Assembly: GCA_023480825.1 (NCBI GenBank)
Contig: JAMCWQ010000078.1
Coordinates: 1 to 36,437, forward strand
Length of the DNA stretch: 36,437 bases
Source: Chloroflexota bacterium
GTDB lineage: Bacteria > Chloroflexota > Chloroflexia > JAMCWQ01
Direction: 5' to 3'
Positions 31,584 to 34,895 of this stretch are shown here, piece after piece (position 1 is the stretch's first letter; the number at the start of each line of letters is the position of its first letter). A model generated the notes under the pieces. The model did not search any database, had not been told where the DNA came from, and saw only the letters and a list, made by a program, of their open reading frames with translations. The position numbers and the translations under genes are program-made.

Positions 31584-32033
31584 TCACACCGGCTTGCGCC
31601 GGACTCTCTTCTGCGCGGTGATGGCTTGGGTTGCCAGGCGGTCGGACTTGGCATTTCGCTCCCGCGGCACGTGGGTGAAGGAGACTTCCTCGACCTGTTT
31701 GATCAACTCTATGACCTGCTGGTACAAACGCTGCAACGTGGCATCGCGCACTTTGTACTCCCCTTTGAGTTGCTTCACCACAAGCTCGCTATCGAGGAAG
31801 CAGTCGAGCCGCTCCGGCCTGTATTTGAGCGCGGCCTTCAGGGCAAAGAGGAGAGCGTTGTATTCGGCCTGATTGCAGGTCATCACCCCAAGAGGCTCGG
31901 AGATAGTCTCGAGCACTGTGCCGCCGGCTTGCACGACACCGCCCGCTCCGGCCAGGCCGGGGTTTCCTTGAGAGGCGCCGTCACTGTGGATGGCTATAAC
32001 CCGGAGATCGGGTCCTTGGTTAGTGCGGGGCAT
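31584..32033 (-). CDS. Ribonuclease HI family protein
   Basis: The 149-residue protein has the RNase H fold with acidic active-site residues Asp18 (HSDGASQGNPG), Glu57 (NQAEYNALL), Asp81 (DSELVVKQL) and Asp131 (NAKSDRLA). This is the short type lacking the basic handle region, often annotated as reverse-transcriptase-like or RNase HI family. It would cut the RNA strand of RNA-DNA hybrids. The ATG lies within the end of the zinc-ribbon gene (14-nt overlap), a pairing seen in many genomes. Symbol rnhA is plausible but this clade differs from E. coli RnhA. Confidence 0.9.
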   Translation of the reverse strand: MPRTNQGPDLRVIAIHSDGASQGNPGLAGAGGVVQAGGTVLETISEPLGVMTCNQAEYNALLFALKAALKYRPERLDCFLDSELVVKQLKGEYKVRDATLQRLYQQVIELIKQVEEVSFTHVPRERNAKSDRLATQAITAQKRVRRKPV

Positions 32034-32730
32034 ATAATATCCGCCCGCAACTGCAGTAAACTACTCGCTGCCCGGAGCGGCACTCCTGCAGCGTCGCCTT
32101 TGGCAGTGATTCCCGGCAGCCCGAACACATGCCGTTTTCCACCACCGCCACCGCCAAGCCCCTCCTGGTCTTTCGCAACCTTTCGTACTTCGCAAGTAAT
32201 TCGGTATCGAGCCCGGCAGCAGACTCCAGATGGGCGGTGCGCTGCCTGTGGAGCTCGGCGATCTCCGCTTCCAGCACGATCCGCTCCTGAGAGAGATTGG
32301 CCGACTCCTCCGCCCATGCTTGTTCGGCCCTAACCAGTTCTGCGCGGGCTTCGGCGAGTCCGGTTCCGGCGGCCTCATCAGCCAGCATGGCTTCCAACTC
32401 TCTCTCCTCCAGTAGGGATTTCTCCTCCAGAAGGCGGGACCTTTCCTCTTCCATGTGGGATAGCTGGCTCTGGTTCTTGATTCCGCCAACACGCAGCCCT
32501 TTGTCAATGCTCGCTAGGCGCCGGTTCAGGTCGGACTCCTCCGCCTCTATTTCGGGCAAGGCGCTCTGAGCCGCCCTCACCTCCGACTCCCGTGATTCGA
32601 CCACGGCACGCGCCAGCGGGATGCTGTCATCTGTTCGAAGCCGCTCGTCTATTCTTTCGATGGCCGCAACCCGGGCATCGATTTCCAGGTCTATGTGCTG
32701 TAGCTCGTGAAGGTAGCGCACGCTATTCAT
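32020..32730 (-). CDS. Coiled-coil C4-type zinc ribbon protein (COG1579)
   Basis: The 236-residue protein has a long helical coiled-coil hairpin (about 5-180, rich in Glu, Arg, Leu and Ala) with KGLRVGGIKNQSQLSHMEEE near the turn. A C-terminal zinc ribbon carries Cys202, Cys205, Cys226 and Cys228 (CSGC...CSCGRILY). This is the DUF164/CT398-like architecture. Its function is not well defined, and a nucleic-acid role is suggested by the ribbon and by coupling to RNase HI. GGGGAG is 7 nt before the ATG. Confidence 0.88.
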   Translation of the reverse strand: MNSVRYLHELQHIDLEIDARVAAIERIDERLRTDDSIPLARAVVESRESEVRAAQSALPEIEAEESDLNRRLASIDKGLRVGGIKNQSQLSHMEEERSRLLEEKSLLEERELEAMLADEAAGTGLAEARAELVRAEQAWAEESANLSQERIVLEAEIAELHRQRTAHLESAAGLDTELLAKYERLRKTRRGLAVAVVENGMCSGCRESLPKATLQECRSGQRVVYCSCGRILYAPH

Positions 32731-32802: not shown

Positions 32803-32831
32803 TTGACATAGAACGCCTGTTCTGCTACCAT
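32803..32831 (+). promoter_or_regulatory. Promoter of the small unknown gene at 32902
   Basis: TTGACA (32803-32808), 17-nt spacer, TACCAT (32826-32831) with a TGC extension before the -10. Predicted start is near 32838, inside the second palindromic box. Confidence 0.65.
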
Positions 32832-32846
32832 TAGAACGTACGTTCT
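32810..32846 (+). promoter_or_regulatory. Two LexA-like boxes
   Basis: AGAACGCCTGTTCT (32810-32823) lies between -35 and -10, and AGAACGTACGTTCT (32833-32846, extending to TAGAACGTACGTTCTA) covers the start site. Both fit AGAAC-N4-GTTCT, the inverted repeat of the Gram-positive LexA (SOS) box GAAC-N4-GTTC. The second also fits the B. subtilis core GAACRNRYGTTC. Centres are 23 bp apart, about two helical turns. Confidence 0.6.
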
Positions 32847-32901
32847 ATTATTATTGGCGGCGCATACGGCTAACCGGACGTAAAGATTGAAGGTGAAAGA
32901 A

Positions 32902-33138
32902 ATGACTTACCTCGCCTGGTATGACGATGACCGGAAGAAGCCGGCCCGGGAGAAGATCGATGAAGCCGTGAACAGATTCGTCGAGAAATACGGCTACTCG
33001 CCCAATCTGTGCTTGGTCAATGAGAGCGAATCCGTGAAACATGATGACCTGGTTGTAAAGCCGGTGCACCGCGTTGCTCGTCACACCTACTGGATCGGCT
33101 ATGACCAAACACTGGCCGGCGGAGCGGCTTGCGACTAA
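32902..33138 (+). CDS. Small conserved-looking protein of unknown function, possibly SOS-controlled
   Basis: I do not recognise a named family. From ATG 32902 (AAGGTGA 6-7 nt upstream) it encodes 78 residues beginning MTYLAWYDDDRKKPAREKID and ending IGYDQTLAGGAACD. It is a soluble, charged alpha/beta-like protein with a likely amphipathic helix (REKIDEAVNRFVEKY) and then a beta-rich part (PNLCLVNESE, LVVKPVHRVARHTYWIGYD). A TTG at 32887 would add five residues. It is a single-gene unit on the plus strand behind a promoter with two LexA-like boxes. Its stop codon overlaps the stop of the convergent carboxylase gene. Confidence 0.7.
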   Translation: MTYLAWYDDDRKKPAREKIDEAVNRFVEKYGYSPNLCLVNESESVKHDDLVVKPVHRVARHTYWIGYDQTLAGGAACD

Positions 33139-34895
33139 GCGGATATCAACGCGATCAATGCTCCATTCTCCACGGTCTGGCCCGCCTTCACCACAAGCTG
33201 GCTGACGACGCCTGACCGGTGCGCCAATATTTCGTTTTCCATTTTCATGGCTTCCAGCACGCAGACAACATCGCCGCTTACCACGGCCTGGCCGGCCTCC
33301 ACCAGCACACTGATCACCGTCCCCTGCATGGGACTTACTACCGCTTCGGAGTCCGCCGGGTATTTCCCTCGCACCATCCTCTTTTGGACCGGTTTCCGCC
33401 GGCCATCTGGTCCTTCCGCCAGCTCTGGCGCGGTCACTCGCACTGTGTAAAGCTTGTCGTTTATTTCGACCTGGATATCCCTTACCCGGGTGTCGCCCGC
33501 GGCCGGGGCGACAGGAAATCTGCCAATCGGAGACCTCGTCTCGGGGAACAGGGAGGAATCGAGATCATTCTCTACGAACTGGGTAGTGGCATTGCCGGCG
33601 GCAAACACCGGGTGAGCAATGACTTGCCGGCAGAACGGAATAGTGGTCTTCACACCTTCGATCTGGAACTCGTCCAGAGCCCTCAGGGTGCGCTGGCGGC
33701 ACTCGGCCCGGTCTGTTCCCCAGACGACGAGCTTGGCGATCAGAGAATCATAATGCTCGGGAATCGTGTAGCCGGGGTAGGCTCCACTATCGACCCGCAC
33801 CCCAAATCCGCCAGGCTCAGAATAATAGGCAATCGTCCCAGGGGTAGGGCGGAACCCGTTCGACGGGTCCTCGGCGTTGATGCGGCATTCTATGGCATGC
33901 CCTTGCGGCATGATATCCTCCTGCCGCAAGCTGAGCTGCGCCCCGCCGGCAAGCCTGAGCTGCTCCTTGACAAGGTCCACACCGGTCACCATCTCTGTCA
34001 CCGTATGCTCCACCTGGATACGCGTATTCATTTCCAGAAAGTAGAATTCGCCATCGGCGCTCAGTAGGAACTCCAGTGTGCCCGCACTCGAGTAGCCGGA
34101 GGCGTTGGCGGCGCGCACCGCTGCTTCTCCCATACGTCTCCTGACCTCGGGACTAATGGCCGGCGAGGGGCTTTCCTCGATGAGTTTCTGGTGTCTGCGC
34201 TGTATTGAGCAATCCCTCTCTCCTAGATAGACCGCATTGCCGGCCCCATCCGCCAATATCTGCATCTCGATATGCCTCGGGTTGGAGAGGTACTTCTCGA
34301 TGTATAGGCTGGCGTTGCCGAAATAGCCGCTAGCCTCGCGTGCGGCTCCTTCGAAAGCCGGTTCCACCTCGCTCCCTTCCCTGGCTATCCTCAGCCCCTT
34401 GCCACCACCGCCCGCTACCGCCTTAATGGCGACCGGATAGCCAAGATTGTCTGCAACAGACCTGGCTTCCATCACGCTTTGGACCGGCTCGAGTGTTCCA
34501 GGAACCACAGGCAGCCCGGCAGCGGACATGGTCTGGCGAGAGACAATCTTGTCGCCCATGGCCTCGATGGCCGAAGCCGGAGGCCCGACGAACTTCAATC
34601 CGGCTGCTTCGCACTGCCGGGCGAACCCGGCGTTTTCTGCCAGAAAGCCATACCCCGGATGAATGCCATCGGCCCCGCAGTCCAGGGCCGTCTGGATGAT
34701 CCGGTCGATGTTAAGGTAGCTCAGAGTGGGGGCAGCCGGCCCTATGAGATAGGCCTCATCGGCATAGAAGAGGTGGGCCGCTTGCCGGTCGGCTTCCGAA
34801 TAGACGGCGACCGTCCCGATGCCCAACTCGCGGCACGCCCGCATTACCCGAATGGCAATTTCCGAACGGTTGGCAACAAGCACCTTCCGCAGCAT
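33135..34895 (-). CDS. pccA: Acyl-CoA carboxylase alpha chain (biotin carboxylase fused to BCCP)
   Basis: The 586-residue protein carboxylates its own biotin with ATP and bicarbonate. The biotin carboxylase part begins MLRKVLVANRSEIAIRVMRA and has the ATP-grasp loop AVAGGGGKGLRIA and FLEMNTRIQVEHTVTEMVTG (about residues 1-450). A linker of roughly 50 residues leads to the biotinyl domain with EAMKMEN (biotin Lys551) and SPMQGTVISVLVEAGQ. The short linker is like acetyl/propionyl-CoA carboxylase alpha chains of Actinobacteria. Partner subunits lie directly upstream. GGAGGA is 10 nt before the ATG. Substrate (acetyl-, propionyl- or another acyl-CoA) is set by the beta chain, so the symbol is tentative. 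Confidence 0.9.
   Translation of the reverse strand: MLRKVLVANRSEIAIRVMRACRELGIGTVAVYSEADRQAAHLFYADEAYLIGPAAPTLSYLNIDRIIQTALDCGADGIHPGYGFLAENAGFARQCEAAGLKFVGPPASAIEAMGDKIVSRQTMSAAGLPVVPGTLEPVQSVMEARSVADNLGYPVAIKAVAGGGGKGLRIAREGSEVEPAFEGAAREASGYFGNASLYIEKYLSNPRHIEMQILADGAGNAVYLGERDCSIQRRHQKLIEESPSPAISPEVRRRMGEAAVRAANASGYSSAGTLEFLLSADGEFYFLEMNTRIQVEHTVTEMVTGVDLVKEQLRLAGGAQLSLRQEDIMPQGHAIECRINAEDPSNGFRPTPGTIAYYSEPGGFGVRVDSGAYPGYTIPEHYDSLIAKLVVWGTDRAECRQRTLRALDEFQIEGVKTTIPFCRQVIAHPVFAAGNATTQFVENDLDSSLFPETRSPIGRFPVAPAAGDTRVRDIQVEINDKLYTVRVTAPELAEGPDGRRKPVQKRMVRGKYPADSEAVVSPMQGTVISVLVEAGQAVVSGDVVCVLEAMKMENEILAHRSGVVSQLVVKAGQTVENGALIALISA

Follow-up and report, generated by a model that had tools for sequence, protein, structure and literature searches.

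What is the role of a lone gene of 78 codons in a member of the Chloroflexota, and what do the two palindromes ahead of it control? The window, that is the whole stretch of 36,437 nucleotides analysed here, corresponds to contig C59 in an assembly of 1.57 Mb that is 51% complete. The original prediction had pointed to two AGAAC-N4-GTTCT palindromes 23 bp apart, in the spacer and at the start site of a good promoter, ahead of a lone gene for 78 residues, and all three parts of this description hold. Both palindromes are perfect, and their starts are 23 bp apart (Table 1). The promoter, TTGACA-17-TACCAT, agrees with the consensus at 10 of 12 positions and is the only one found by a consensus scan of the region; box 2 starts 2 nt past its -10 element. 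A repressor bound to these boxes could therefore obstruct the promoter at two sites. Since the upstream neighbour is divergent and the downstream neighbour is convergent, the small gene is monocistronic. The open reading frame is a real gene, because relatives in many genomes, with about 30-47% identity, keep the reading frame and an N-terminal W[YF]D motif.

Table 1. Features of the small-gene locus in the window and of the related loci discussed in the text
Feature	Position	Strand	Basis or remark
-35 element TTGACA	32803-32808	+	consensus scan
Putative SOS (LexA) box 1, AGAACGCCTGTTCT	32810-32823	+	exact match; wholly inside promoter spacer
-10 element TACCAT	32826-32831	+	consensus scan
Putative SOS (LexA) box 2, AGAACGTACGTTCT	32833-32846	+	exact match; over expected transcription start
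Probable ribosome-binding site AAGGTG	32890-32895	+	6 nt 5' of ATG, read from sequence
78-aa small-protein ORF	ATG 32902 to stop 33138	+	78 codons
5' neighbour	32020-32730	-	divergent from small gene
3' neighbour, biotin carboxylase-type protein by sequence	33135-34895	-	convergent; overlaps small gene by a few bases
Third perfect site of the assembly	C19:10112-10125		between TTGACA and TATAAT, ahead of imuA
Predicted imuA-imuB-dnaE2 cassette	L102:4555-10125		on contig C19
Weak recA site, AGAACAAACAATCT	L103:9805-9818		2 mismatches
FtsK-like operons ending in the small gene	L155-L159, L162, L164, L167, L168, L069, L081, L082
DUF6504-small gene pairs	L077:4209-4677; L084:5900-6364; L079
DnaB-like helicase gene and small gene, viral contigs	L219 (137-1935); L221 (3535-5213)
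Second FtsK-like gene of genome G004 (f5)	L262:2030-4926		downstream of lexA, same strand, nearby

In Gram-positive bacteria, LexA recognises the motif GAAC-N4-GTTC (PMC3323433). Perfect AGAACNNNNGTTCT sites occur three times in the assembly, and two of them are the boxes of the window, which contains no other. From base composition, about one perfect site is expected per assembly, and the chance of two within one 171-bp intergenic region is of the order of 1e-8. The third site lies exactly between the -35 and -10 elements ahead of a RecA-like gene (imuA), the same promoter position as that of box 1 in the window. Behind this gene come one for a Y-family polymerase (domains IMS and IMS_C) and one for a polymerase of the DnaE type that has a PHP domain; together they identify the predicted cassette as imuA-imuB-dnaE2, the classic SOS mutagenesis operon.

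Using the profile PF01726, which replaced NF007621 (as a LexA/UmuD probe the latter had no match in this genome), we did not find lexA in the 51%-complete assembly, and found it in all 60 relatives searched (60/61 genomes). Because LexA is absent from a half-complete assembly, we infer the regulator from the relatives. Many of their lexA promoters carry CGAAC-N4-GTTCG, AGAAC-N4-GTTCT or mixed forms, i.e. [AC]GAAC-N4-GTTC[TG], and in other classes of the phylum a perfect box is present in 12 of the 14 readable lexA promoters. Most genomes that have the box at the small gene have it at the lexA promoter too, and in family f6 the perfect box is mostly absent from both. The original prediction had expected the box at recA, lexA and dnaE2 or imuB if it is the SOS box. 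A perfect box is found at imuA-imuB-dnaE2 and the box recurs at lexA of the relatives; the site at recA of this genome is weak, with two mismatches, and neither supports nor refutes the identification as a LexA box.

The small gene is not confined to this genome. Homologues were detected in 35 of 61 genomes in a class-level search and, across the phylum, in 85 of 400, with bins of Chloroflexia, Thermobaculum, Thermomicrobiales and Roseiflexus among the named relatives. Contigs were searched with a pattern from the closer alignment (A2), the wide alignment (A1) being too diverse. An alignment of 21 members shows four invariant residues, W6, D8, P34 and G66. A perfect GAAC-N4-GTTC lies at most 450 bp upstream of 24 of the 41 homologues checked, as against 0.25 expected from shuffled sequences. 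In families f1, f3, f9, f10, f12 and f13, where the gene stands mostly alone, every homologue has a perfect upstream box (16/16), a count that spans six families of related genomes and thus does not represent 16 independent events. The rest of the promoter sequence has diverged among the homologues that keep the box, and the box is kept far beyond this genome.

The view of the original prediction that this is a LexA-controlled SOS gene is thus supported by the box at imuA, at lexA of the relatives and at distant homologues, and the small gene should almost certainly be under LexA control. The regulon resembles that of Gram-positive bacteria in the sequence of the box, in its placement over the promoter and start site, and in its presence at lexA and imuA within the same group. 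It differs in the host phylum, here the Chloroflexota, and in being predicted from sequence. The open-access literature yielded no account of a LexA regulon in Chloroflexota, subscription papers being outside the scope of the search. The type of regulon is known, and the protein family appears to be unnamed.

The small protein has no match above cut-off or of significance in Pfam, NCBIfam, PHROGs and PADLOC, and none among PDB sequences or plasmid and phage records, in line with the earlier statement that it belongs to no recognised family. Residues 17-46 have a weak local similarity to the YyzF / CxxH_BA5709 family (PF14116, TIGR04129). Membership in this family was rejected, with scores of 13.5 bits (cut-off 27) and 14.5 (cut-off 35), and the small protein contains neither CxxH nor CxxC. 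Structure prediction, which had been proposed as a check, was done with AlphaFold and a 14-sequence alignment. The best model is a compact, soluble beta-alpha-beta-beta-beta domain (mean pLDDT 84.8, pTM 0.71); the four remaining ones score poorly (53-61). A fold search with this model returned nothing significant, with best E values of 0.3 (PDB) and 0.078 (viral predictions), and its matches to HK97 capsid domains are at noise level. The protein is hydrophilic (GRAVY -0.66) and has no long hydrophobic stretch. The family thus appears to be undescribed and unnamed.

Clues to function come from the gene neighbourhoods. In families f18, f50, f63, f73, f2 and f5, the small gene lies behind a gene for an FtsK-like ATPase, and in most of these loci the operon promoter bears one or more boxes, which are sometimes near-matches. 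Tandem boxes recur before such operons, e.g. in L157, L168 and L081; in L157 and L168, AGAACAAAAATTCT and AGAACATAAGTTCG lie 22 bp apart, which resembles the layout in the window. The ATPase of L162 has FtsK_SpoIIIE and FtsK_alpha domains; that of f18 is more divergent, and its FtsK match is below the cut-off. A protein with two hydrophobic segments (2-TM) is encoded between the ATPase and the small gene in f2, f5 and f73, and in f63 lexA, the ATPase gene and the small gene follow each other directly. An SOS-controlled FtsK-like operon ending in the small gene is a predicted arrangement that has apparently not been described. In genome G004 (f5), a second FtsK-like gene is located near lexA (Table 1). 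The FtsK-like partner is not obligatory, because this genome and the close relatives with a lone small gene yielded no orthologue of it.

Other neighbours differ between lineages. In families f8 and f11, a DUF6504 gene directly precedes the small gene, with a box ahead of both. We found no literature on DUF6504, and it was dropped as a lead, its single plasmid match being surrounded by unrelated genes. Homologues of the small protein are also encoded on three viral contigs. On two of them the small gene is placed directly behind a DnaB-like helicase gene; one (L221) also encodes a Phage_rep_O protein, and the other (L219) a weak HerA-type ATPase.

In five long members of family f48 (L150-L154), the small protein has an Ala/Pro/Lys-rich low-complexity tail that contains Q-x-[ST]-LW or QPLSLW; for each, shuffled tails are expected to show the motif in no more than 1% of cases. 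One FtsK-like protein of f2 contains QVDLWDE. For comparison, the clamp-binding motif of mycobacterial ImuB is QLPLWG (PMC10421592). The Q-x-x-LW motif is missing from the protein of the window and from five further f48 members; it was therefore rejected as a family feature and regarded as a lineage trait. In that one lineage, the tail suggests a possible tethering to the clamp.

The best overall explanation, to which we assign a probability of about 0.5, is that the small gene belongs to the LexA regulon and encodes an accessory of DNA-bound machinery, either a motor or the fork. An accessory of a DNA translocase or of the replisome fits the gene context best, and it is the most economical reading of the contexts in which the family occurs, namely the translocase operon, the phage helicase and, in some members, the clamp-like motif. 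Neighbouring genes do not prove contact between the small protein and these partners, and the accessory role taken by itself is tentative, at somewhat less than even odds. For the mechanism, we infer LexA binding and induction: LexA on one or both boxes would cover the spacer and start site and block RNA polymerase. After damage, RecA-stimulated cleavage of LexA would free the promoter, and the small protein would be made. Its soluble alpha/beta domain might then bind, position or restrain an FtsK-like translocase induced in the SOS response, in genomes that have one, and might act on the replication fork where the small gene is encoded alone. A wider scheme is speculative and on balance doubtful. 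It proposes an SOS module common to the phylum, consisting of an FtsK-like translocase without a membrane part of its own, the 2-TM protein in some lineages, and the small protein as an adaptor tethering to the fork or clamp. Such a module might clear, pump or protect damaged chromosomes, and lineages like the present one would have the adaptor alone, on a normal fork.

The small protein could instead be an SOS-induced inhibitor of cell division that delays septation after damage, the role of SulA, YneA, SidA or DivS. It shares with these proteins the encoding by a small, lone and strongly controlled SOS gene that is sometimes found beside lexA: the f63 operon adjoins lexA, and yneA adjoins lexA in Bacillus. 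In the window and in several families (f3, f6, f12, f13), the small gene is within a few kb of mraZ and rsmH, with which the division cluster begins, and the septum could be a site of action for the FtsK-like and 2-TM partners. However, YneA, SidA and DivS are proteins with a single membrane-spanning segment, whereas the small protein is hydrophilic and has none, and searches of Pfam and NCBIfam gave no match to SulA or another family. In other classes the gene is found away from the division cluster, and the phage copies beside dnaB, the DNA motors of the other contexts and the clamp-like motifs suggest DNA, not the septum, as the place of action. An inhibitor of division is thus unlikely.

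A role as an accessory of the mutagenic polymerase complex ImuA-ImuB-DnaE2 would account for the perfect box that the small gene and imuA have in common in this genome, and for the ImuB-type Q-x-x-LW motif of some family members. Yet the presence of the small gene does not track that of ImuB, which was matched in 7 of the 35 genomes that have the small gene as against 18 of the 26 that lack it, in a comparison of related genomes with a query that may also catch DinB. In the 20 neighbourhoods that were searched, the small gene is moreover unlinked to imuA, imuB or dnaE2, and we regard such a role as improbable. The list of functions in the original prediction is thus shortened only in part: an obligate role in mutagenesis is disfavoured, and a membrane inhibitor of the YneA type does not suit the sequence.

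It is similarly hard to attribute to the small protein an anti-phage or prophage-linked function, induced in the SOS response and guarding against or countering phage replication. The copies on viral contigs, beside genes for the DnaB helicase and the Phage_rep_O protein, would agree with this idea, as would the scores that the defence models SspH and mad8 give to the FtsK-like partner. The latter scores are probably due to the shared FtsK/HerA motor, however, and the small protein itself has no PADLOC match. In several families the gene keeps its chromosomal position by housekeeping genes, which is atypical of defence islands, and this function has little probability. Finally, it is very improbable that the boxes arose by chance in front of an ordinary housekeeping gene: short palindromes do occur at random, with about one perfect site expected in the assembly, but these are in tandem in one promoter, are conserved across families and classes, and have their like at lexA and imuA.

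SOS regulons vary chiefly in their lineage-specific genes. The Chloroflexota are a large environmental phylum, the SOS regulon of which is apparently unmapped in the open literature. The data now provide for it a box, a conserved uncharacterized member and a linked operon with an FtsK-like motor. The phage copies beside a replicative helicase offer a second route to the function of the family, and it becomes a testable question how the damaged chromosome and the fork are handled by genes outside the classic SOS models. The small protein is probably an unrecognized part of the way in which these bacteria survive damage to their DNA.
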